DNA from: an uncultured Acidobacteriaceae bacterium
Lineage (GTDB): Bacteria; Acidobacteriota; Terriglobia; Terriglobales; Acidobacteriaceae
Length of the DNA stretch: 64,000 nt
Assembly (NCBI GenBank): GCA_903904755.1
Contig: CAIVDV010000005.1
Coordinates: forward strand, 1-64,000
Direction of reading: 5' to 3'
Below, piece by piece: positions 23,903-35,485 of the stretch. The position numbers were made by a program, and so were the translations under genes. Within the stretch, counting starts at the first letter, position 1. Each line of letters opens with the position of its first letter. The notes under the pieces are model-generated. The model was not told the DNA's origin. It saw only the letters and a program-made list of their open reading frames with translations, and did not search any database.

Positions 23903-26089
23903 ATGCGGGTTTGCGTGCTTTTGCTGAGTGTGTGGGCTGTGCCGGTGTGGGGGGCGGTGCATCCGGTGCCGGTGCCGGCGGAGATGCGGTCTTCTGGGTT
24001 TACGGTGACGGTGAATGGGCAGGCGGTGGAGGTGGCCCATGCGGCGTCGAGCCTGGATTTTGCCAGCTTTGACATGGATGCCGGCAAGCCGGGGGCGAAG
24101 GCGACGCCGGTAACGGTGGCGGTGACGGCGGCCGAAGATGGATTTTGGGACCAGGGTGTGGAGATACAGCCGTGGCGGCTGGGGATGCGGCCGCTTAGAG
24201 CGGGGCGGACGATTACGTTTCGGCTGGCGGGGCCAGCGAAGCTGTCGATTACGCGGCCCGGGGATTTTCTGAATCACGCGAAGATGCTGTTTCTGTTTGC
24301 CGGGGTGCGGCCGGATGGGCCGCCGGTGGGGGAGCAGGTGCATGTGGTGGCGGCAGGGGTGCACCGGGAGAGCATCAGTCCGAAGAGCGGAGAGACGTGG
24401 TATCTGGAGCCGGGGGCGGTGGTGATGGGCAGCGTGAACCTGTTCCATGTGGAGAATGTGAAGGTGCTGGGGCGCGGGGTGGTGGTGTATGACGGGCCGC
24501 AGAATCCGGAAAACGATGATGGGTGGATGCAGAAACCGGACTGGCACTGTGTGGGTGCGGTGGAGGCGAAGCGGGTGGAGGTGCGGGGGCTGACGTGCGT
24601 GGTGCGGAGCCGGACGTGGTCGATCCAGATGAAGGATTCGACGGGGTTTTTATACGACGATGTGCGGGTGATTGGCGGGAATCCGGGGAATGCGAACCAG
24701 GACGGGATGGACTGGCTGGGGGGCGGGGACGCGGTGGTGCGGAACTCGTTTTTCCGGGCGTCGGATGATGTGTTTGCGATGCAGGGGAACTGGGACGGGT
24801 ACAAGCCGGAGGATATCCGGCGGCCGGGGCATGATGTGCAGAACATTGTGGTTGAGGACTCGGTGCTGTCGACGAGCATCTCGAATATTGTGCGGGCGGG
24901 GTGGCCGGAAAAGCAGTTCAACTCGCGGAATTTTACGCTGAGGAACTCGGACATTCTGCATGGGGGGATTGGGAGTTGCGGGCCGGCGTTTGCGCTGTTT
25001 ACGTTCTGGGGCGCGAAGGGAGCGGCGGGGCGGCATGCGGGGTACACGTTTGAGAATTTGTGGCTGGATGACTGGTACTCGCTGATGCAGATGCAGGTGG
25101 ACGGGCCGGAGCTGAGTGATTTTACCTTCCGGAATATCTGGGCGATTGACCAGCCGCCGCTGGTGGACTCTGTGCTGTCGGGCGTGGTGAAGGGTGTGCG
25201 GGTGGAGAACCTGAAGTATGGGGGGACGGAGGTTGTGGGGGACGCGCAGGTTCCGCTGGTGGTGGGTAACGGGGCGGAAGAGCCGAAGTACGGGCGAGTG
25301 GCCGGGGTGCGAGCGGCGTTCACCGTGGAGCCGGCCATTGTGGGGGTGGGGCAGACGGTGCGGTTTACGGCCGAGCCGCAACGCGGGGCAAAGGTGAAGT
25401 ACACGTGGTTGTTTGGGGATGGAACGAGTGCGACAGGTTGGCGGGTGAGCCACCGCTACGGGGATGCTCTGGGGACGGAGCTGGATGGAGAGCGGCTGGG
25501 AGCGGGGCGGTTCCGGGTGCTGCTGAAGGTGACGGATGCGGCGGGGCATGAGGACTGGATGGCGCAGGGGCTGGTGGTGGTGGGCAAGTGGCACGATGCG
25601 GCGGCGGGGGCGGAGACGACGCAGCCTGGGCTGGAGTATCGGATGTATGCGGGGACGTGGCCGGATATGCCGGATTTTTCGAAAGAACGGGTGGTGGGTT
25701 ACGGGATTGCGAGGACGCTGGCAGGGGCGGACCCGAGGGGGTACAGCAGCTATGCGGCGGTGTATGAAGGGTACCTGGAAGCTCCGACGGATGGTGGATA
25801 CAGCTTTGACCTGATGGCGCGGGACGGGGCGAGGCTTGTGATTGACGGGGAGTTGGTGGCGGGGACGGTGACGCCGTTTGGGGAGGTATGCGGGTCGCCG
25901 GAGAATGCGATGCGGTTTGCGCGGGGGAGCATCGGGCTGCGGGCGGGTCGGCACCGGGTACACATTGAGACGCTGGAGAGCGTGAGCCCCGGTGTGCCGA
26001 GGCTGATGTGGAAGGGGCCGGGATTCCACCTGACGGATGTACCGGCTGGGGCGCTGAGCCACGCGGCGGTGGCGGTGGTGCAGCCTTAA
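23903..26089 (+). CDS. Secreted beta-helix glycoside hydrolase with PKD and PA14 domains
   Basis: 728 residues with a signal peptide (about 1-18, VPVWG). Residues about 150-450 form a right-handed parallel beta-helix as in GH28/GH49 enzymes; NQDGMDWLGGGDAVVRNSFFRASDDVFAMQGN contains the Asp-rich catalytic-like segment DG-D and DD. A PKD-like domain (about 475-565, YTWLFGDGTSATGW, VLLKVTDAAGHEDW) follows, then a PA14-like carbohydrate-binding domain (about 585-710, YEGYLEAPTDGGYSFDLMARDGARLVIDGELV). It probably cleaves an extracellular polysaccharide. The start is the ATG at 23903; a TTG at 23894 would be nearer to the GGAGGGG. It ends 4 bp into the convergent tauE-like gene. Confidence 0.8.
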   Translation: MRVCVLLLSVWAVPVWGAVHPVPVPAEMRSSGFTVTVNGQAVEVAHAASSLDFASFDMDAGKPGAKATPVTVAVTAAEDGFWDQGVEIQPWRLGMRPLRAGRTITFRLAGPAKLSITRPGDFLNHAKMLFLFAGVRPDGPPVGEQVHVVAAGVHRESISPKSGETWYLEPGAVVMGSVNLFHVENVKVLGRGVVVYDGPQNPENDDGWMQKPDWHCVGAVEAKRVEVRGLTCVVRSRTWSIQMKDSTGFLYDDVRVIGGNPGNANQDGMDWLGGGDAVVRNSFFRASDDVFAMQGNWDGYKPEDIRRPGHDVQNIVVEDSVLSTSISNIVRAGWPEKQFNSRNFTLRNSDILHGGIGSCGPAFALFTFWGAKGAAGRHAGYTFENLWLDDWYSLMQMQVDGPELSDFTFRNIWAIDQPPLVDSVLSGVVKGVRVENLKYGGTEVVGDAQVPLVVGNGAEEPKYGRVAGVRAAFTVEPAIVGVGQTVRFTAEPQRGAKVKYTWLFGDGTSATGWRVSHRYGDALGTELDGERLGAGRFRVLLKVTDAAGHEDWMAQGLVVVGKWHDAAAGAETTQPGLEYRMYAGTWPDMPDFSKERVVGYGIARTLAGADPRGYSSYAAVYEGYLEAPTDGGYSFDLMARDGARLVIDGELVAGTVTPFGEVCGSPENAMRFARGSIGLRAGRHRVHIETLESVSPGVPRLMWKGPGFHLTDVPAGALSHAAVAVVQP

Positions 26090-26916
26090 TGAGCTGAGGG
26101 GCCGGGGTAGGCGGCGGCCTTCAGGGGAAGGGCGGGTACGGCGGCGGATTTGTGGTCGGCCTGGTGGGTGAAGATGGCCTGGTACCAGAATTGCCCGCCG
26201 AGGAAGACGAGCCAGACGGACAGGGCGAGGCGAAGCTGGCGGTTGGGGATGAGGGGGGCGACGAAGCTGCCGACGAGGCCACCGAGGATGCCACCGAGGG
26301 CGAGGTGGAGAAGCAGGGTGGTGTCGTAGGCGCCGCCGAAGAAGTGGACGCCGGTGCCGGCGACGGCGAGGATGAGTCCAAAGGCGAGATCGGTGCCGAC
26401 GACGCGAGCGGTGGTGAGCGGGGTGAGGCCGAGGAGGGCTACGGTGCCAAGCGCGCCTGCGCCGGAGGAGGAGAAGCCGACCTCAACGCCGATGGGGAGC
26501 ATGAGGCCGGCGAGCCAGCCGGTGCGCTGCTTGACGGCGCGGTCTACTGCGAGGGGCTTGAAGTGGCGGAAGATGTGCCAGCCGGAGGTGAAGATGATGA
26601 TGGCGCCAAGGGCGAGGTAGAGGGCCTGGCGTGGGCCGTGGAGCGCGACCTGACGGAAGGCGAGGGAGCCGAGGATGACGCCGGGAAGGCCGCCGAGGGT
26701 CATCCAGCCGAGGATGCGCCAGTCGACCTGCCTGCGGAAGATTTGGACGGGCACGATGATGAGCTTGACGACGGCGGAGTAGGCGAGCGCGGTGCTGACG
26801 GCGATCTCGACGGGGACGTTGAGAAAGAGCAGCAGGAGGGGTGCGGTGATGGTGCCCGCGCCAACGCCGGTGAGGGCGATGATGACGGCGATTGAGAATC
26901 CGATGACGAAGTCCAT
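26086..26916 (-). CDS. TauE/SafE (TSUP) family sulfur-compound permease
   Basis: 276 residues with about eight membrane helices. The N-terminal GFSIAVIIALTGVGAGTITAPLLLLF and the second repeat GFSSSGAGALGTVALLGLTPLTTARVVGTDLAFGLILA are typical of the TSUP family, which moves sulfite, sulfonates, sulfate or sulfoacetate across the inner membrane. It is the third gene behind the TonB receptor and cysH (33 bp after cysH), so the context points to a sulfur oxyanion, perhaps sulfate uptake as no CysPTWA genes are nearby. The direction of transport cannot be told from sequence. Confidence 0.85.
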   Translation of the reverse strand: MDFVIGFSIAVIIALTGVGAGTITAPLLLLFLNVPVEIAVSTALAYSAVVKLIIVPVQIFRRQVDWRILGWMTLGGLPGVILGSLAFRQVALHGPRQALYLALGAIIIFTSGWHIFRHFKPLAVDRAVKQRTGWLAGLMLPIGVEVGFSSSGAGALGTVALLGLTPLTTARVVGTDLAFGLILAVAGTGVHFFGGAYDTTLLLHLALGGILGGLVGSFVAPLIPNRQLRLALSVWLVFLGGQFWYQAIFTHQADHKSAAVPALPLKAAAYPGPSAH

Positions 26917-26949
26917 GGGGGTGGTCCTTAAATGCTGCAGTGAAGGGAG

Positions 26950-27648
26950 TTATTGGGCCTGGATGTGGATGCCGCACTCCAGTTTTTGGCCGCCCCAGCG
27001 TCCGGAGCGGGGGTCGTTGGGGTCAGACGGGAGCGAGGTACATGGGGCGCAGCCGATGCTGGAGTAGCCCTTGTCGTAGAGGGAGACGAGGGGGATGTTG
27101 TGGGCCTGGGCGTAGAACCAGACATCGCGGGTTGACCACTCGGAGAGGGGGCTGATTTTGCGTATGGAGCGGCCGGTGGGGAGGGCGAAGTCTTCGATTT
27201 GGCGGAGGGCGGCGCGGCTTTTGGCCTGTTCGCGGCGGAGGCCGGTGAGCCAGAGCTTGTAGCCGGCGAGGGCGGCAAAGAGGGGGTTGACCTTACGGAG
27301 GCCGCAGCACTGAGTGGGGTCAGTCTGGTTGAGGATGCCGAACTGGGTTTCCTGCTGAGCGACGGTTTGCTCGGGCAGGATGTTGATGAGGTTCATGTGC
27401 CACTGGGCGGCGAGGCGGTCGCGGTATTCGAGCAGCTCGGGGAAGTGGTAGCCGGTGTCGAGGAAGACAACGGGGATTTCCGGGCGAATTTGCCGGGCCA
27501 TGTGGAGGAGCACCATATCTTCCGCCTGAAAGCTGTTGGTCAGCACCACGTCCTGGGGGAAGGCGGCGAGCTCGTTGGCGACGAGTTGCTGGGCGACGGT
27601 GGCCTTCTCGGCTGGAGTGAGGGTGGGATCGGCGGCGGAATTGCTCAT
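26950..27648 (-). CDS. cysH: Adenylyl-sulfate (APS) reductase
   Basis: 232 residues. It reduces activated sulfate to sulfite. The Cys pattern is that of the iron-sulfur type that prefers APS: TQCCGLRKVNPL near residue 115 and SIGCAPCTS near 200 supply the CC and CxxC ligands, and KLECGIHIQ near the end holds the redox Cys. PAPS reductases of E. coli type lack the CC/CxxC pairs. LSEWSTRDVW is also conserved. It sits 98 bp downstream of the TonB receptor and upstream of the TSUP permease. APS use agrees with the lack of a working APS kinase in the neighbouring CysN. Confidence 0.93.
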   Translation of the reverse strand: MSNSAADPTLTPAEKATVAQQLVANELAAFPQDVVLTNSFQAEDMVLLHMARQIRPEIPVVFLDTGYHFPELLEYRDRLAAQWHMNLINILPEQTVAQQETQFGILNQTDPTQCCGLRKVNPLFAALAGYKLWLTGLRREQAKSRAALRQIEDFALPTGRSIRKISPLSEWSTRDVWFYAQAHNIPLVSLYDKGYSSIGCAPCTSLPSDPNDPRSGRWGGQKLECGIHIQAQ

Positions 27649-27746
27649 GGGACGAGTGCTCCTGTGTGGGTGAGAGACGGCATGGGGCAGCCATGGCAGG
27701 CCGCCCGGAATGCGGTGGGTTTTGGTTGCCGTGCCGGCTGGTGCGC

Positions 27747-30700
27747 CTAGAAGAGGAGCTTCAAGGCGAACTGGAGCTGACGCGAGGTGGTTGCGGTGGC
27801 GGTTTCAACACCGGCGGTGGGTGAGGCGACGGTGGCCGCACCGGGCTTGGCCGGGGTGGGGCCGGAGCTGAAGACGACAGCGTTGGGGGTGGTGAAGTTG
27901 GTGTGGTTGAGGAGGTTGAAGTATTCCACGCGGAACTGGGCGTGGAGGCGCTCGCGGATGGTGGCGTTCTTGAGGAGCGAGAGGTCAACGTCGGTGAGGC
28001 CGGGGCCGGTAAGCGCGTCGCGGCCGGCGTTGCCGTAACTGCCGGGGGTGGGGGCGATGAAAGCGTCAGGATTGAACCACTGGGCGGCGGTGTGGGGATA
28101 GAGTTTGCCGTGGAAGTCGGGGTTCAACTGGGGACGGGCGGGGTTGCGGGTGTCTCCATTGCCGGTGGGGTTGTAGCCGAGCTGGGGCGAGAAGGGGAAG
28201 CCGCTTTGGAGGGAGACGATGGTGGAGAGGCTCCAGCCGGAGACGATCTGCTGCCCGGAAGAGGGGACGTTGGAGAAGATGCGATGGCCCTGGCCGAGGG
28301 GGAGATCCCAGGTGCCGTTGAAGGCGGCGGAGTGAGCGACATTGGTGGCGGCGCGGCCGTAGTCGAGCTTGGGGTTGCCGGGGAAGGAGACGAAGGCCGG
28401 GGTGTTGGAGGAGACGCTGGTGTTCCAGGCGGAGCCGTCGTCGAGGTTTTTGGAGAAGGTGTAGACGCCGCGAAGCTGGAAACCGTGCGCGTACTGGCGG
28501 CGGGCATCGAGTTCAAGCGCGTGGTAGTTGCTGATGCCCTGCGAAACCCATGAGGTGGAGTTGGCGAGGGTGGAGTTGGCGAGGGTTTGCGAGGTGTAGT
28601 AGATGGCGCCCGCGGAGAGGGAGCCGGGGCATGCGGGGTCGGGGCAGATGACGTAGGGGGGGGTGTTCTGGTCTTCGGAGAGGATTTGATGATAGCTGTG
28701 GGAGCCGACGTAGCCGACGGTGAGGGTGGTGCGGGGAGCGATTTGCTGCTCGATTTTGAAGGTCCAGGCGAGGACGGTGGGGGTTTGGATGTCGCGCTGG
28801 ACGTTGCTGGGGGAGACCTTGCCGCCGGTGGAGGTGGGCAGGGAGAGGCCGGGGAGGGCGGTGACGCTCTTGTTGCTGAAGGAGAGGGTGGTGTTGAAGG
28901 GGGCGACCTGGTCGAGGCGGTAGTCGAGGGTATCGAGGAGGGCGCGATGGAGGCCGAAGCTGGCGCGGAGGGCGGTTTTGCCGTTGCCGAAGAGGTCCCA
29001 GGCGAGGCCGACGCGGGGCTCGGGGAGGAAGGTTGCGCGATTCTGAGCGAGGGCGGAGTTGCCGACGGTGGGGGTGGCGTTGAAGACGCCGTCGGTGAAG
29101 TCGTAGTTGGCGGCGCGGCCGTGGGCCTCGTTCCAGCCATTGGAGGATTCGAAGCGGAAGCCGGCGCGGATTTCGAGGCGGGAGGTGGCCTTCCACGCAT
29201 CTTCAATGAAGCCCGCGCCGAAGAGGGAGCGCCAGTTGAGGGCGGTGGGGGCGGCGACGATGGTGTACTTGGAGACCTGGCCCTGTTCGAAGGCGGCAAG
29301 GGTGGAGAAGGATGCCTGGCCGAACTGGTTCTGGGCGAGGAAGTCGTTGGACTGGAGGCGCTGGAGCCAGAGGCCGGCCTCGACCTGATGCTTGCCTCGG
29401 GTCCAGTAGACGTGGTCGTCGACGGTGAAGAGGTTGCGTGCGGTGCGGTTGCCGCTGCCGGTGTTTGCGCCGGCAAGGGTGATTTGGGATGCGCCGTTGC
29501 TGGCGGTGGAGCCGGCGATGACGACGGCACCGACGGGGCCGTTGGCGACCCAGCCCGGAACGCCGCCCGAGACGATGGAGTCAAAGCCAAAGACGGCGCG
29601 GGAGAAGCCGACGCGGAGGGTGTTGAGGAAGCTGGGGGAGAAAACGTGCTGCTCCTGGGCGCTGAGGACCTGCTCGCGGAGGCGCTCGTCGATGGAGGAG
29701 AAGGGGTTGGCGGTGGGGGTGGTGGCGGAGCTGTCGTCTACGGTGTAGGCGGCGAAGAAGAGGTCGTTGGCGGAGAGGTTGGAGTCAACGCGGGTGGTGC
29801 CGAAGTCTTCGCGAATGCGCTGGAGGGGGTTTGAGAATGCCTCGGCGATGCCGCTGCCGAGCTCGACGGTGCCGGTGGGCCAGAGGGCCAGGAGGGGCTG
29901 GACGGCGGGGACAGCGGCGGCGCGAGCAGCGGCATCAGGGACGAAGGTGACGTCAGAGAGGCCGAGATGCTGGCGGTAGCCCTCGTAGTTGGCGAAGGCG
30001 AAGAGCTTGTCCTTGAGGACGGGGCCGCCGGCGGCGAGGCCGAAGTCGTTGCGCTGGAAGGGGGGAATGGCGGCCTGGTCGAAGTAGTTGCGGGCGTCGA
30101 GGGCGCTGTTGCGGAAGAACTCGTAGGCGGAGCCGTGGAACTGGTTGCTGCCGGAGGCGGTGATGATGGAGACCTGGGCGCCGGTGCGCTTGCCGTAGTT
30201 GGCGCCGTAGGTGTCGCTGACGACGTTGAATTCGCGTACCGCCTCAACGCCGAGGAGCTGGCCGCTGGTGCCGCCGGGGGTGACGTTGATGAGCGATGCG
30301 CCGGTGTACTCAATGCCGTTGAGGAGGAAGAGGTTGTCCTGGGGGCGGCGGCCGGAGACCGAGTACATGTTGCCGACTGAGGAGTTGGAGGTGCCGACGG
30401 CGCCGGAGCGCTGGGTGGAGTAGCTGACGGATGCGGGGTTGAGCTGGAGGAGCTGGTCGAAGCTGCGGCCGTTGAGGGGGAGTTCCTTGACCTGGCGCTC
30501 GTTGACGAGGCCCTGGGATTGGAGGGTGGAGGTGTCCACGCTGACGGGGGTATCGACGACGGTGATTTCCTGGGCGACGGAGCCGACGGTGAGTTCGAGG
30601 TGGAGATGGACGCCCTGACCGACGGTGACGGTGATGCCGGTTTGGTTGAGGGGTGCGAAGCCGTCGTGGTTGACGGAGACGGTGTAGGTGCCGACGGAGA

Positions 30701-30932
30701 CGGAGGGCGCGGAGAAGGTGCCGTCTGCGGAGGTGAGGAGGTGGCGCTCGGTGCCGGTTTCAACGTTGTGGATGACAACGTGGGCCTGGTTGACCGAGGA
30801 GTTGCTGGGGTCAACGACTTCGCCAGCGATGGTACCGCCGACAAGCTGTGCGGATGCGGGCAGCGCGGCAAGAAGGAGGGCAACTGCCAGGAAGAGGTAA
30901 CGACCGAGATTCGAGGCTTGGAAGCGATGCAT
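27747..30932 (-). CDS. Oar-like TonB-dependent receptor in the sulfur operon
   Basis: 1061 residues from the ATG at 30932 (MHRFQASNLGRYLF), preceded by GGAG 7 nt upstream. A signal peptide (about 1-30, ending PASAQ) is followed by a carboxypeptidase-regulatory-like domain (about 33-115, GGTIAGEVVDPSNSSVNQAHVVIHN in part), the plug (about 130-260, VKELPLNGRSFDQLLQLNP) and a long beta-barrel ending in Phe (QFALKLLF). It imports a bulky or scarce compound through the outer membrane using TonB energy. The genes downstream (cysH, tauE-like) and two poly-Cys leader frames upstream predict a sulfur-containing ligand, for example a sulfonate or sulfate ester. This last point is inference. Confidence 0.9.
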   Translation of the reverse strand: MHRFQASNLGRYLFLAVALLLAALPASAQLVGGTIAGEVVDPSNSSVNQAHVVIHNVETGTERHLLTSADGTFSAPSVSVGTYTVSVNHDGFAPLNQTGITVTVGQGVHLHLELTVGSVAQEITVVDTPVSVDTSTLQSQGLVNERQVKELPLNGRSFDQLLQLNPASVSYSTQRSGAVGTSNSSVGNMYSVSGRRPQDNLFLLNGIEYTGASLINVTPGGTSGQLLGVEAVREFNVVSDTYGANYGKRTGAQVSIITASGSNQFHGSAYEFFRNSALDARNYFDQAAIPPFQRNDFGLAAGGPVLKDKLFAFANYEGYRQHLGLSDVTFVPDAAARAAAVPAVQPLLALWPTGTVELGSGIAEAFSNPLQRIREDFGTTRVDSNLSANDLFFAAYTVDDSSATTPTANPFSSIDERLREQVLSAQEQHVFSPSFLNTLRVGFSRAVFGFDSIVSGGVPGWVANGPVGAVVIAGSTASNGASQITLAGANTGSGNRTARNLFTVDDHVYWTRGKHQVEAGLWLQRLQSNDFLAQNQFGQASFSTLAAFEQGQVSKYTIVAAPTALNWRSLFGAGFIEDAWKATSRLEIRAGFRFESSNGWNEAHGRAANYDFTDGVFNATPTVGNSALAQNRATFLPEPRVGLAWDLFGNGKTALRASFGLHRALLDTLDYRLDQVAPFNTTLSFSNKSVTALPGLSLPTSTGGKVSPSNVQRDIQTPTVLAWTFKIEQQIAPRTTLTVGYVGSHSYHQILSEDQNTPPYVICPDPACPGSLSAGAIYYTSQTLANSTLANSTSWVSQGISNYHALELDARRQYAHGFQLRGVYTFSKNLDDGSAWNTSVSSNTPAFVSFPGNPKLDYGRAATNVAHSAAFNGTWDLPLGQGHRIFSNVPSSGQQIVSGWSLSTIVSLQSGFPFSPQLGYNPTGNGDTRNPARPQLNPDFHGKLYPHTAAQWFNPDAFIAPTPGSYGNAGRDALTGPGLTDVDLSLLKNATIRERLHAQFRVEYFNLLNHTNFTTPNAVVFSSGPTPAKPGAATVASPTAGVETATATTSRQLQFALKLLF

Positions 30933-31034
30933 TTCATTACTCCAGGGACGTGGGGAAGCGGGTGCTTCGCTGGGAGGGGTTTCCAATTTGTGACGGTATG
31001 TTGCAGGCGGGCCGGCGGGGCCGGCGGGCGGGAA

Positions 31035-31127
31035 TCAACAACAGGAATGACAACAACGCGCATGGACGCGGATGCGCTGCGGTGCGAGGGCACGCGAGGC
31101 AGGGTTGTTCCTGATGGATGACTGCAT
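31035..31127 (-). CDS. Poly-cysteine leader peptide 2 of the TonB receptor-cysH operon
   Basis: 30 codons from ATG at 31127 to TGA at 31035. Cys codons are the last residues: Cys25, Cys26, Cys29 and Cys30 (ending RCCHSCC), all TGT. GGAG lies 7 nt upstream of the ATG, a good ribosome binding site. The stop codon is 102 bp before the TonB receptor start. A GCCGGC-rich stretch (31011-31026) that can fold follows. The position of the Cys codons at the very end is like classical attenuator leaders, where the stalled ribosome masks downstream RNA. Confidence 0.75.
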   Translation of the reverse strand: MQSSIRNNPASRALAPQRIRVHARCCHSCC

Positions 31128-31164
31128 GGGGAAGCTCCGGGAAATTGTGCGCGATGTGTGTGTT

Positions 31165-31195
31165 GGGAATCCCGAGGTGTTCGGGATGGGTTCCC
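31165..31195 (-). promoter_or_regulatory. Hairpin between the two poly-Cys leader frames
   Basis: ATCCCG (31169-31174) and CGGGAT (31182-31187) form a perfect 6-bp stem with a 7-nt loop, inside outer arms GGGAA/TTCCC (31165-31169, 31191-31195). In the leftward transcript it lies between leader frame 3 (31234-31284) and leader frame 2 (31035-31127). No T tract follows. A role in cysteine-dependent control is possible. Confidence 0.5.
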
Positions 31196-31233
31196 TCAGG
31201 CCTTACGGGCAGGAGAGAACGGGCCAGCGAGTG

Positions 31234-31284
31234 CTAGCAACAACAGAGACAACAACAGGCGCGACGATGGGAGCGGGAAGACAT
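31234..31284 (-). CDS. Poly-cysteine leader peptide 3 (first in the TonB receptor-cysH operon)
   Basis: 16 codons, MSSRSHRRACCCLCCC, from ATG at 31284 to TAG at 31234. Cys10-12 and Cys14-16; five of the six Cys codons are TGT. A strong promoter candidate (TTGACA at 31325-31330, 17-bp spacer) points to a start of transcription only some 10-16 nt before the ATG, so the frame has almost no 5' leader and no clear Shine-Dalgarno. It is the first frame of the leftward sulfur operon. Six Cys codons in 16 are far beyond chance. Confidence 0.8.
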   Translation of the reverse strand: MSSRSHRRACCCLCCC

Positions 31285-31301
31285 AATTTGCAACTGTGCT
31301 T

Positions 31302-31330
31302 ACCTTATGGAAGGTTGGGCTGTGTGTCAA
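31302..31330 (-). promoter_or_regulatory. Promoter of the TonB receptor-cysH-tauE operon
   Basis: On the minus strand TTGACA (31325-31330) is a perfect -35 box, followed after exactly 17 nt by TAAGGT (31302-31307), a weak -10 box. Transcription would begin near 31295, just before leader frame 3. It overlaps the promoter for cysDN on the other strand region, so a shared regulator could act on both. Confidence 0.65.
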
Positions 31331-31332
31331 GT

Positions 31333-31359
31333 TTGCCGGATTGGGGGAGATTCGATAGT
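31333..31359 (+). promoter_or_regulatory. Candidate promoter of cysDN
   Basis: TTGCCG (31333-31338) and GATAGT (31354-31359) are separated by 15 nt. The spacing is short, so the call is moderate. Transcription from it would begin near 31366-31369, at or next to the ATG of the cysDN leader frame (31369), which would make that frame leaderless. Confidence 0.45.
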
Positions 31360-31368
31360 CTGGAGTGG

Positions 31369-31434
31369 ATGAAGCTGATTGCGCAGCCCGGTTGTTGTCG
31401 CGTGTCGCCCGACGCGTGTTGTTGCTGCGCCTAA
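31369..31434 (+). CDS. Poly-cysteine leader peptide of cysDN
   Basis: 21 codons from ATG (31369) to TAA (31432-31434). Cys9-Cys10 and Cys17-Cys20 give the runs GCCR and ACCCCA; four of the six codons are TGT. It begins about 10 nt after the candidate -10 box, so the mRNA may be leaderless, as reported for poly-Cys leaders in mycobacteria. It ends 142 bp before cysD. A longer open reading in the same frame exists upstream but runs through the opposite operon's control region and is not credible as a gene. Expected role: cysteine-sensing leader for sulfate activation. Confidence 0.8.
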   Translation: MKLIAQPGCCRVSPDACCCCA

Positions 31435-31447
31435 TCGCTTCCCCTTC

Positions 31448-31525
31448 TTCCCTGACACAGTGACAGCTTAGGGAAATTCCCCCCACAAGAGACGTGTGAG
31501 CAGAACGAGCGGCAGAGTGTCGCTG
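31448..31525 (+). promoter_or_regulatory. Hairpins between the poly-Cys leader and cysD
   Basis: TTCCCT (31448-31453) pairs with AGGGAA (31470-31475), and AGCGGCA-gag-TGTCGCT (31509-31525) forms a second stem with one G-U pair. Neither has a T tract, so control might be by Rho or by hiding the cysD ribosome binding site, which is weak (AGGCGG). Structures were read by eye only. Confidence 0.4.
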
Positions 31526-31576
31526 CGGCGGGCTGAAAGCGCACACCACCATACAGATGCAGGCGGTATCCATACG

Positions 31577-32530
31577 ATGTCCACGGTAAGTACAGTCGTT
31601 GAGCAAACTGATGCGCTGCGCGAGCGAGCGCTGCCCTCGCTGAGCCATTTGCAGGCACTGGAGGCGGAGAGCATTCACATTCTGCGCGAAGCGGTGGCGG
31701 AGTTTGCCAAGCCGGTGATGCTGTATTCGATTGGCAAGGATTCGAGTGTGATGTTGCGGCTGGCGCAGAAGGCGTTTTATCCGGGGCCGATTCCGTTTCC
31801 TCTGCTGCATGTGGACACGAGCTACAAATTTCCGGAGATGATTGCGTTTCGCGATGGGTATGCGAAGGAGATTGGCGCGGAGCTGCTTGTGCATCGCAAT
31901 GAAGAAGCGATTGCCTCGGGGGCGAATCCGCACACGCTGGGAACGCAGAACTGCTGCGGATTGCTGAAGACGCGGTCGCTGCTGGATGGGCTGGCGGAAG
32001 GCGGGTATGATGCCGCGTTTGGCGGAGCGCGGCGCGATGAAGAGAAGTCGCGCGCGAAGGAGCGCGTGTACAGCTTTCGCGATGGCGCGGGACAGTGGGA
32101 CCCGAAGAATCAGCGGCCTGAGTTGTGGAACATCTACAACTCGCGACTGAGGAAGGGCGAGTCGATTCGCGTGTTTCCGCTGTCGAACTGGACGGAGCTG
32201 GATATCTGGCTGTACATCCACATGGAGAAGATTCCGATTGTTCCGTTGTACTTTGCGAAGGAGCGGCTGGTGGTGGAGCGCGGCGGATCGCTGATTGTGC
32301 ACTATGACCATTTGCCGCTGTTGCCAGGAGAGACGCCGAAGCCGGTGATGTGCCGGATGCGTTCGCTGGGGTGCCTGCCGTGCACAGGCGCGATTCGATC
32401 GGAGGCGGATACGCTGCCGAAGATTATTGAAGAGATGCTGGCCTTCCGGCGGAGCGAGCGCGAGAACCGCGTGATTGACCACGATGAAGAAGGCTCAATG
32501 GAAGTGAAGAAGCGCGAGGGGTACTTCTAA
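31577..32530 (+). CDS. cysD: Sulfate adenylyltransferase subunit 2
   Basis: 317 residues from the ATG at 31577. It forms APS from ATP and sulfate with CysN. Family blocks: [18 protein letters not shown] (PP-loop), [59 protein letters not shown] and the conserved end VKKREGYF. The stop codon is 1 bp before the cysN start, so translation is coupled. The upstream region holds the poly-Cys leader. Confidence 0.97.
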
Positions 32531-32531
32531 G

Positions 32532-34196
32532 ATGACGATTGCAGAGTTGCAGGCGACGAACGAGCAGGATGCCCCGGAGAAGTTTGAAGACTTTTTGAAT
32601 CAGCACATGGATCGCGGGCTGTTGCGATTTTCCACGGCGGGCAGTGTGGATGATGGCAAGAGCACGCTGATTGGGCGGCTGCTGCACGATACGAAGGGCA
32701 TCTACGATGACCAACTGGCGGCGCTGAAGAACAGCCGGTTGAACCGGTCGAGCGGGCCGATTGATTTCAGCCTGCTGACGGATGGGCTGAAGGCGGAGCG
32801 GGAGCAGGGCATCACGATTGATGTGGCATACCGCTACTTTGCGACGCCGAAGCGGAAGTTCATCATTGCGGACACGCCGGGGCATGAGCAGTACACGCGG
32901 AATATGGCGACGGGCGCGTCGACGGCGGATTTGGCGATTGTGCTGATTGATGCGATTGCGTTCGAGCGCAAGGGGGGCTTGCTGCCGCAGTCGCGGAGGC
33001 ACACGTTCCTGGCGGCACTGCTGGGAATTCCGCACGTGGTGGCGGCGGTGAACAAGATGGATTTGGCGGGCTACGATGAGACGCGGTTCCGCGTGATTGA
33101 GGCGGAGTATCAGGCGTTTGCGCGTGAGCTGGGGCTGAACAACGTGGTGGTGATCCCGATCAGCGCGCTGGCAGGGGACAACATTGTGGAGCGCGGCGCG
33201 GAGATGCCGTGGTACACGGGGCCGACGCTGCTGGAGCAACTGGAAGGCGCGGAGCTGGAGCCGGAGGATGTGCAGGGACGGGCGTTGCGTTTTCCAATTC
33301 AACTGGTGCTGCGGCCGAATATGGAGTTTCGCGGATATGCGGGGCAGGTGGCGAGCGGCGTGGTGCGGCAGGGCGACCGTGTGGTGGCGTTGCCGAGCGG
33401 ACGCGAGACGACGGTGAAGCGGATCGTGACCTGGGATGGCGACCTGACGGTTGCGCGGAACGGGCAGAGCGTGACGCTGGAGCTGGCGGACGAGATTGAT
33501 TTGTCGCGCGGCGAGATGCTGGTGGCACCGAAGGCGCGGCCGCACATGGCGCGGCACTTTGCGGCGAGCGTGGTTTGGATGCACGAGGAGCCGCTGAAGC
33601 TGGGCGCAAGCTACGTGGTGAAGCACTCCACGCGGAGTGTGCGGGCGCGGGTGGCGGCGATTCGGCATCGAGTGGATATCCACACGATGGAGAAGGTGCC
33701 GGCGACGACCCTGGCGATGAATGATATTGCTGTGGTGGAGTTTGAGGCTGCGAAGCCGCTGTTTTTTGACGCTTACGCGGAGAACCGGGCGACGGGGAAT
33801 TTCATCCTGATTGACCCGATTACGAATGCGACGGTGGGCGCGGCGATGCTGACCGAGGCGCTGGAAGAAGAGACGGCGGGACGGACGCGCGTGCTGCCGG
33901 TGCTGGTGCATGCGAAGGGCAAGCCGGAGCTGGCGGCGACGGTGGCGAAGGCGCTGCGGGCGCGAGGCCAGGCGGTGGTGAACCTGGACGACGAGCACAT
34001 TGGCGATGCTGGATTTGCCGCGGCGCTGCGGGCGACGCAGTTGGCCGGGGCAATTGGGGTAACGACGCGCGAAGGGTTGCCAGTGGGCGAGCTGGAGGCG
34101 TTTCTGGAAGGCGAGCAGGTGCTGACGGCGGCGGATGAAGAGCGGCTGGCGCGGCAACTGGGACTGACGGAAGCGGAGCTGGACTGGGCGATTTAG
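32532..34196 (+). CDS. cysN: Sulfate adenylyltransferase subunit 1 with degenerate kinase tail
   Basis: 554 residues. The GTPase motifs are intact: STAGSVDDGKSTLIGRLL, DTPGHEQYTRNM and NKMDLAGYDE. It drives APS synthesis by GTP hydrolysis. Plain CysN is about 430-475 residues; here residues about 441-554 are extra. Part of this tail (ELAATVAKALRARGQAVVNLDDEHI) lines up with the APS kinase CysC pattern (ARALxxxLxxRGxxVxxLDGD), but the kinase P-loop is missing (HAKGKPE in its place). It is probably a remnant of a CysNC fusion, no longer making PAPS. This agrees with the APS-type CysH. Confidence 0.93.
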   Translation: MTIAELQATNEQDAPEKFEDFLNQHMDRGLLRFSTAGSVDDGKSTLIGRLLHDTKGIYDDQLAALKNSRLNRSSGPIDFSLLTDGLKAEREQGITIDVAYRYFATPKRKFIIADTPGHEQYTRNMATGASTADLAIVLIDAIAFERKGGLLPQSRRHTFLAALLGIPHVVAAVNKMDLAGYDETRFRVIEAEYQAFARELGLNNVVVIPISALAGDNIVERGAEMPWYTGPTLLEQLEGAELEPEDVQGRALRFPIQLVLRPNMEFRGYAGQVASGVVRQGDRVVALPSGRETTVKRIVTWDGDLTVARNGQSVTLELADEIDLSRGEMLVAPKARPHMARHFAASVVWMHEEPLKLGASYVVKHSTRSVRARVAAIRHRVDIHTMEKVPATTLAMNDIAVVEFEAAKPLFFDAYAENRATGNFILIDPITNATVGAAMLTEALEEETAGRTRVLPVLVHAKGKPELAATVAKALRARGQAVVNLDDEHIGDAGFAAALRATQLAGAIGVTTREGLPVGELEAFLEGEQVLTAADEERLARQLGLTEAELDWAI

Positions 34197-34408
34197 CGGC
34201 GTGTGGAGTGAGCCGAAAGAGGGGCGAAGGGGCGAGCTGCGGGGCAGGGAGCGATTTTTGATTTCGCGCGGACTTTCGCTTTTTCTTCTAGTGTCCGGCG
34301 CGACTATCCTGCTACAATCCAACCGAACTGCAAAGACAATTTCCGCTGGATTCCTGCCTGTTTGGGGGGCGTTTTGCGGCTGATTGCAAAGATAAAGGAG
34401 ACCTCCCC

Positions 34409-35485
34409 ATGGGTTTGGCAGAAGACAGGGCACGCGCGGTAGAGAGCGCGCTTTCGCAGATAGAGAAGCAGTTTGGCAAGGGATCGATCATGCGCCTTGG
34501 CTCGAAGGAAGCCATTGTGCCGATTTCAGTGATCTCGACCGGCTCAATCAGCTTTGATGCCGCGCTGGGGGTGGGAGGGGTTCCGCGTGGACGCGTGATT
34601 GAGATTTTTGGGCCTGAGAGCTCGGGCAAGACGACGATTACGCTGCAGATTATTGCCGAGGCGCAAAAGGCCGGCGGGCTGGCGGCGTTTGTGGATGCCG
34701 AGCACGCGCTGGACCCGGCGTATGCGAAGAAGCTGGGCGTGGATACGGACAACCTGCTGATTTCGCAGCCGGACTATGGCGAGCAGGCGCTGGAGATTAC
34801 CGAAGCGCTGGTGCGGTCGGGCGCGATTGACGTGCTGGTGGTGGACTCGGTTGCGGCGCTGGTTCCGAAGGCGGAACTGGATGGCGAGATGGGCGACTCG
34901 CATGTGGGATTGCAGGCGCGGCTGATGTCGCAGGCGCTGAGGAAGCTGACGGGCACGGTGTCGAAGTCGCGGACAAGCCTGATCTTCATCAACCAGATTC
35001 GCGAGAAGATTGGCGTGATGTTTGGCAATCCTGAGACGACGACGGGCGGGCGGGCGCTGAAGTTCTACTCGTCGGTGCGCGTGGATATTCGGCGCATTGC
35101 CGCGGTGAAGGAAGGCGATGTTGTTGTGGGTTCGCGCACCAAGGTGAAGATTGTGAAGAACAAGGTTGCGGCACCGTTCCGCGAGGCCGAGTTCGACATT
35201 CTGTATGGTGAGGGCATTTCTCGCGAGGGGGATGTGCTGGACCTGGCGGTGCTGCACAATATTGTGGAGAAGTCGGGCGCGTGGTACAGCTACGACGGCG
35301 AGCGGATTGGGCAGGGTCGCGAGAATGTGCGGACCTTCCTGAAGGACAACAAGGATATTTATGTGAAGATGGACGCGGCTGTACGGGCGAAGCTGGGAAT
35401 TGGTGCGGGGGCGAAGGCGGAGATTCCGCCGGTTCCCGCCGATGGCCCGGTGGCGGCGGCGCAGGTGGTACGCGGGCGGAAGTAA
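34409..35485 (+). CDS. recA: Recombinase RecA
   Basis: 358 residues, normal length. Walker A is GPESSGKTT, Walker B region [10 protein letters not shown], and the DNA-binding loops contain [11 protein letters not shown] and [22 protein letters not shown]. It pairs homologous DNA and triggers LexA cleavage. AAAGGAGA precedes the ATG by 9 nt. A TACAAT box (34313-34318) is a possible -10 element. A terminator with eight Ts follows the gene, so it is transcribed alone. Confidence 0.98.

Follow-up and report, generated by a model that had tools for sequence, protein, structure and literature searches.

Short upstream frames that carry runs of cysteine codons have been described in several bacterial groups. 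In mycobacteria, leaderless polycysteine sORFs attenuate expression through the speed of the ribosome on Cys codons (Canestrari et al. 2020, as related in the available parts of PMC9031893 and PMC13236596). For Mycobacterium, Propionibacterium acnes and Bifidobacterium longum, the accessible portion of PMC1262725 describes Cys leaders with Cys runs near the stop codon and no conserved terminator, for which Rho was suggested. In Rhodobacterales, uORFC-8-2, located before cysS, contains two tandem Cys codons, with UGC dominant, followed by an intrinsic terminator (available text of PMC8632094). Tandem attenuators are found in the Salmonella mgtCBR leader, where the signals are ATP and proline; in the part accessible to us, its authors call it a singular example (PMC3641672). 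As regards Acidobacteriota, almost no attenuator predicted for this phylum had a known function in a 2010 survey, the available text of which names no Cys leader of the phylum (PMC2965389). In the open-access literature, covered mostly as titles and the beginnings of abstracts, we found nothing about two Cys leaders for the same signal arranged in tandem.

The DNA analysed here (the window) is a stretch of 64,000 nucleotides from an uncultured Acidobacteriaceae bacterium, the genome assembly of which comprises 4.22 Mb in 83 contigs. The closest named relatives of its CysD are from Acidobacteriota, e.g. Terriglobus albidus (79%). Ahead of a receptor gene, the window contains two short frames with runs of Cys codons; these are probably cysteine-sensing leader peptides placed in series on one transcript, where they would gate the expression of an oar–cysH–tauE operon.

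Two cysteine-rich frames ahead of a receptor operon

A preliminary description of this DNA had reported two tandem poly-Cys frames on the minus strand before an operon encoding a TonB receptor, CysH and TauE. Both frames are present, with the coordinates and translations given there, and the domain matches of the three genes bear out the operon. The frames are referred to below as leader A (leader 3 of that description) and leader B (its leader 2). The features of the locus are the following.

26086 to 26916, minus strand: tauE/safE family membrane protein (Pfam; no NCBIfam match)
26950 to 27648, minus strand: cysH, phosphoadenylyl-sulfate (PAPS) reductase (Pfam and NCBIfam)
27747 to 30932, minus strand: TonB-dependent receptor-like outer membrane protein of 1061 aa (Pfam OMP_b-brl_4 and CarboxypepD_reg), the gene of which we take to be oar
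30940 to 30943, minus strand: GGAG, Shine-Dalgarno-like, 7 nt ahead of oar
30944 to 31034, minus strand: C-rich, G-poor stretch from leader B to the oar ribosome binding site, with 46 C and 17 G, rut-like by composition only
31035 to 31127, minus strand: leader B, from ATG 31127 to TGA 31035, 30 codons, C-terminus RCCHSCC
31135 to 31138, minus strand: GGAG, Shine-Dalgarno-like, 7 nt ahead of leader B
31169 to 31187, minus strand: hairpin between the leaders, AUCCCGA-ACACC-UCGGGAU (folding)
31190 to 31220, minus strand: hairpin 3′ of leader A, GUUCUCUC...GAGGGAAC, with no U-tract behind (folding)
31234 to 31284, minus strand: leader A, from ATG 31284 to TAG 31234, 16 codons, MSSRSHRRACCCLCCC
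31302 to 31307, minus strand: putative −10 box TAAGGT, followed by an in-frame TTG after 8 nt and by the ATG of leader A after 17 nt
31325 to 31330, minus strand: putative −35 box TTGACA of the oar transcript (by reading; promoter score 9/12, spacer 17)
31369 to 31434, plus strand: third Cys leader, MKLIAQPGCCRVSPDACCCCA, ahead of the divergent cysD
31577 to 32530, plus strand: cysD, sulfate adenylyltransferase small subunit, divergent from oar (NCBIfam)
32532 to 34196, plus strand: cysN, sulfate adenylyltransferase large subunit (NCBIfam)

Leader A is separated from leader B by 106 nt, and leader B from the ATG of oar by 102 nt. Reading of the sequence agrees with the earlier statements that nine of the ten Cys codons of the two leaders are TGT and that GGAG stands 7 nt ahead of leader B. 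Where a single hairpin had been noted between the frames, folding gives two adjoining ones, at 31220-31190 and 31187-31169, neither with a U-tract; the energy of this inter-leader fold corresponds to a z of about −1.5 as compared with shuffles. By reading, an extended form (GGGA/UCCC) of the 31169 to 31187 hairpin would compete with the 31190 to 31220 hairpin. Both divergent operons of the window, oar–cysH–tauE and cysDN, have Cys leaders. A scan of positions 25500-35000 against Rfam returned one match, to a lncRNA model, which was below the gathering score and is taken as chance.

Conservation, codon use and promoter position

The conservation of the leaders was assessed in the 450 nt upstream of each of 45 receptor orthologs, window included, from 200 genomes of the family. 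The orthologs were drawn from 68 receptor matches; five next-best matches (48-52% identity) served as paralog controls and 18 were left out, including one of 66% identity cut at its far end (G136) and one of 64% devoid of the N-terminal part (G071). The sequences within all sets are related, and p-values overstate their independence. At least one Cys-cluster frame, i.e. a frame of 7-60 codons with three Cys within five codons, is present on the sense strand of 39 of the 45 regions, as compared with three on the antisense strand and a mean of 2.1 (maximum 5) in 100 shuffles. Two or more such frames occur in 19 of 45 sense regions, none of 45 antisense regions and a mean of 0.09 shuffled ones (maximum 1), so that the presence of a pair goes beyond chance.

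A rule based on position was also applied, according to which leader A ends 140-330 nt and leader B 40-135 nt before oar, B being required only to have CC in its last six codons. Leader A was then found in 30, leader B in 38 and both in 26 of the 45 regions (antisense 1, 0 and 0), and the layout with both leaders spans 12 of 17 genera. The spacing is regular, the distance from the end of the leader to oar being 56-125 nt in 30 leaders at the B position. The case that had been named as contrary to the two-leader reading, namely relatives having the gene and lacking the Cys frames, proved to be rare: neither leader was found by this relaxed rule in three of 45 regions (G072, G095 and G165), and G165 does have a Cys-cluster frame under the three-in-five criterion. 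It may be objected that only one of the leaders works, the other being a decaying remnant or a chance frame, since 19 of the 45 regions do not have both leaders by position and some B leaders are just CC. This is improbable in view of the 26 regions and 12 genera that do have both, against none of 45 on the antisense strand, and of the TGT bias over the pooled leaders.

In 21 of the 45 genomes, oar is remote from cysD, at a distance of over 12 kb in eight and on a different contig in 13. A leader is nevertheless kept in 19 of these 21 genomes, and two leaders in eight, indicating that the leaders belong to the receptor. One of the five paralog controls has a leader. The window and loci L032-L065 together gave 205 regions upstream of long frames, 22 of which contain a Cys-cluster frame; judged by position, cysD or the receptor accounts for 15 of these and other frames for seven.

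The leaders use the rarer Cys codon. Pooled leaders have 211 TGT and 63 TGC, as compared with 0 TGT and 55 TGC in the examined parts of oar genes. The long frames in the window plus loci L032-L065 have 128 TGT and 693 TGC; for the window by itself, the numbers are 9 and 86. Two further explanations of the frames have to be weighed here. Short cysteine-rich proteins exist, and the frames could encode such proteins, e.g. metal-binding ones, instead of regulatory leaders. However, no relationship between the N-terminal parts is visible to the eye when genera are compared, the Cys run and its location alone being conserved; taken with the rare-codon bias and with the terminators that have complementary leader tails in relatives, this makes a small-protein function very improbable. 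The other explanation, a conserved TGT-repeat DNA or RNA element rather than codons, could draw on the fact that Leu runs are raised as well (39 of 45 regions, 23.0 in shuffles), a consequence of TGT repeats being read as Leu and Val in the neighbouring frames. Yet TGY outside the longest run favours the Cys frame (85 occurrences; the remaining frames have 42 and 28), other in-frame codons break up the runs and a promoter-like site lies close to the frame starts, so that we give this explanation hardly any credence.

Promoters were scanned for as sigma70-like matches of at least 8/12 whose −10 box is followed by an in-frame start at a distance of 4-12 nt. Such a match precedes leader A in 19 of 28 cases, window included, with starts 6-11 nt after the −10 box (ten shuffles, 0-2); it precedes leader B in none of 30 (shuffles 0-1) and cysD leaders in 22 of 78 (shuffles 0-3). 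The TTGACA-17-TAAGGT site of the window is putative and is absent from the list of a consensus tool, which applies a stricter −10 rule. In the window, an alternative in-frame TTG at 31293 lies 8 nt past the putative −10 box, against 17 nt for ATG 31284, and leader A may start at this TTG rather than at the ATG. Since the promoter match is at A and not at B, leader A probably opens the transcript, being leaderless or nearly so, with leader B on the same RNA. The arrangement would probably be one of a single promoter and two serial sensors, their co-transcription following from the lack of a promoter match before B. A Shine-Dalgarno-like motif precedes a start in only 15 of 30 B leaders.

Conservation, codon bias and the presence of a promoter match at A and not at B thus make the view of the two frames as two cysteine sensors in series, which the preliminary description had put forward, well supported at the level of sequence. 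The stepwise control that it attached to the two sensors is plausible and has structural support in the relatives with terminators.

Candidate output steps

A strict scan revealed intrinsic terminators in 12 of the 45 oar regions (antisense 1; ten shuffles 0-4, mean 1.2), all of them after the position of leader A; the remaining 33 regions gave no strict terminator. Nine of the 12 have both leaders called, with the terminator situated between the two Cys runs. In the others, leader A is called only by a looser scan (G193) or leader B is not called (G207 and G220). The strict scan took the place of a loose one, whose matches in 16 of 45 sense regions stood out too little from the 12 on the antisense strand and the 6-15 in shuffles. 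Neither scan detected an intrinsic terminator after either leader of the window, which has hairpins. Termination after each frame, as earlier envisaged, thus has a counterpart between the Cys runs of nine of the 45 regions and none in the window itself. With a laxer tool, four terminator-like sites with GUUGUUGU-like tails were found in the window (shuffles 0.7), all within leader B or the cysD leader and 5′ of the Cys runs.

Classical attenuation is likely in the 12 terminator-bearing regions. In ten oar cases, the 5′ arm of the terminator had a probability of upstream pairing of 0.70 with the ribosome at the Cys run and of 0.27 with the ribosome at the stop codon, a contrast that is partly built in, as blocked bases cannot pair. 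Shuffling of the spacer alone gave 0.64, and shuffling of the leader tail as well gave 0.52. The corresponding values for 30 cysD cases were 0.63 (stalled), 0.20 (stop, with the same built-in component), 0.60 (spacer shuffled) and 0.46 (fully shuffled). The contrast between stalled and fully shuffled, which is not built in, gave p = 7e-10 over 40 related cases. Shuffling of the spacer barely lowers the pairing, and the pairing partner thus lies mostly in the leader tail. In whole-RNA equilibrium folding, the terminator was lost on stalling in only two of ten oar and two of 30 cysD cases (shuffled, 1 and 2). The median number of codons after the last Cys is six in leaders with a terminator, two in A leaders without one and one in B leaders; those of the window belong to the group without a tail. 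Of alternative structures, terminator versus antiterminator, none was found in the window, whereas antiterminator pairing is supported over full shuffles in ten of the 12 terminator regions, taken as a pool.

The mean C–G skew is 0.36 after leader B, 0.29 after A leaders without a terminator and 0.09 after A leaders with one, as compared with 0.035 in 133 other upstream regions; the two kinds of A leader differ with p = 0.0015, the sequences being related. C-rich composition is a weak predictor of Rho sites. Given the C-rich, G-poor stretch and the fact that Rho is encoded in the genome, Rho-dependent termination on this stretch is the most likely output step in the window.

The series of events that we infer would run as follows. 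Transcription would begin just upstream of leader A, which would be translated from at or near the 5′ end. With charged tRNA-Cys scarce, the ribosome would stall on the run of rare UGU codons; with cysteine plentiful, it would finish and leave, and downstream expression would be shut off. Leader B would repeat the test about 100 nt later, and full output of oar–cysH–tauE would be obtained only with both stalls. In several relatives, the step after leader A would be classical attenuation by terminator versus antiterminator. In the window, devoid of terminators, the step after each leader would be Rho-dependent termination on the naked C-rich stretch.

The same two sensors could instead have a translational output, a stalled ribosome opening the hidden ribosome binding site of the next frame, so that A frees B and B frees oar. 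In mycobacterial polycysteine leaders, stalling reportedly frees a sequestered ribosome binding site in this manner. The terminator-less leaders resemble the mycobacterial ones in having the Cys run near their end (median 1-2 codons after the last Cys); leader A starts near a promoter-like site, which also recalls the mycobacterial type, and the window has hairpins between the leaders. However, sequestration relieved by stalling was not borne out by folding of 30 cases, the Shine-Dalgarno sequence being unpaired to 0.18 in the free and 0.20 in the stalled state, as in shuffled spacers. Moreover, in those relatives that have a terminator behind leader A, transcriptional control is indicated at that step. 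A translational output is for these reasons somewhat unlikely, and we retain termination of transcription as the preferred output.

Two structural ideas about the Cys runs themselves were discarded. Placement of the run in a hairpin loop, suggested by CGC-stop after many runs, did not rise above shuffled flanks in any class. A G+C-rich hairpin directly precedes the UGU run of both the cysD leader (31399-31418, plus strand) and leader B (31077-31058, minus strand). In B leaders, hairpins that abut the Cys run have a mean of −4.7, against −3.2 in shuffles, and 14 of 30 reach −6 or below; the excess strength of such hairpins, for which the UGU codons would act as terminator tail, was significant in no class (p 0.12-0.21).

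A possible wider cysteine regulon and known attenuation systems

Leaders of this type are not confined to the receptor. Among 94 cysD regions (92 of the family, two from outside it, L119 and L128, and including some second copies), a Cys leader was found in 69 (as against two on the antisense strand and 0-9 in ten shuffles) and a strict terminator in 27 (three on the antisense strand). In named Acidobacteriota, 12 of 35 cysD loci have a Cys leader and seven a strict terminator, as compared with three and one, respectively, of 43 loci outside the phylum. The cysD leaders of the window's genus and of close genera (L057, L117, L120, L121, L122, L165, L229, L246 and others) often end in ...CC(C/R)xSNxFDGC...; no strict terminator was found at this conserved tail. 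Lower-identity CysD-like copies with one in-frame stop codon each are present at G022:C74:46964-47893 and G165:C127:38928-39854.

The 15-base receptor-leader pattern TGTTGTTGYCGCTRA occurs at 45 places in the 200 genomes, a modest excess over the 31 of a backward control, and nine of the 45 are receptor leaders by position. Thirty of the 45 loci were inspected. Leaders were seen before cysK (L338), before a MoeZ/MoeB-like gene (L336, and L337 by sequence), before a YeiH-like gene (L323; 112.8 bits, under the curated cut-off of 232.6) and before a further gene (L319); L324 has a similar leader and L348 is the receptor. The rest of the 30 gave nothing convincing. The leaders before YeiH-like, MoeZ/MoeB-like and cysK genes may hint at a larger cysteine regulon.

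Within the genome of the window, a pattern of three Cys near a stop codon was not enriched (58 and 20 matches, against 59 and 39 in backward controls). A scripted look at 50 of these loci (30 of the 58 and all 20) gave nine Cys frames besides the two of the window; all of these frames, the window's two included, overlap long open frames, and a length filter dropped the cysD leader, so that this search neither finds nor excludes further leaders. No match was obtained in plasmid records.

As to the surroundings of the receptor in relatives, a gene for an SsuA-like sulfonate-binding protein follows it by 12 nt at the L192 locus of G034 (a 150-residue piece, 90.9 bits, below the curated cut-off). 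In G227, a gene similar by eye to the window's TauE, with no NCBIfam match, stands after the receptor.

By association only, the neighbouring sulfur genes speak for the import of a sulfur source through the receptor. At its broadest, our proposal is that Acidobacteriota have a cysteine regulon controlled by ribosome stalling, in which two sensors for the same signal would have different outputs, an intrinsic terminator and then a Rho-type or translational gate; their decisions would multiply and sharpen the response, and the receptor would be marked as an importer of a sulfur source. We hold the chances of this broader scheme to be even. If true, serial sensing of one amino acid on one transcript would be a simple RNA route to a steep or stepwise response. 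Why the same thing should be measured twice is a directly testable question, as the layout is present in 12 of 17 genera and its positions can be changed codon by codon. A further implication of the layout is that sulfur assimilation in a large soil phylum may be under ribosome-based control; a TonB receptor that is otherwise an orphan would also be assigned a class of substrate, namely sulfur compounds.

The locus has the general organization of an amino acid attenuator: a short Cys-run frame lies between a promoter, identified by sequence match, and the operon, and the genes concerned serve the same amino acid (cysH and cysDN; oar itself by association only). As far as the available descriptions go, it resembles the mycobacterial polycysteine sORFs in that its first frame is short, has contiguous Cys codons, probably stands at or near the 5′ end of the transcript and would attenuate by way of the pace of the ribosome on Cys codons, and differs from them in belonging to another phylum, in having two leaders in series per operon and in the intrinsic terminators of some relatives. 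The sequestration said to operate in mycobacteria lacked support here, as judged in silico. The runs near the stop codon, the lack of a conserved terminator and the suggested involvement of Rho are shared with the partly available account of Mycobacterium, P. acnes and B. longum; those leaders, however, are single and located on the cys operon and cbs, whereas here a TonB receptor is concerned. Leader A of the terminator-bearing relatives, with Cys codons followed by an intrinsic terminator, is similar to uORFC-8-2 as portrayed in the accessible text, but the latter is one leader with dominant UGC ahead of a tRNA synthetase gene, and here there are two. Tandem leader peptides are also found ahead of ermA, where stalling is induced by a drug and attenuation is translational; ermA thus shares the two serial leader frames and does not depend on codon-specific starvation. 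A parallel in layout is the mgtCBR leader, which, in the portion accessible to us, likewise has two short sensor frames in series on one leader RNA, each belonging to an attenuator. Unlike the frames of mgtCBR, which respond to two different signals, both frames described here would sense one signal through their Cys runs. What would be new with respect to the attenuation systems covered here is the placing of two sensors for one amino acid in series.
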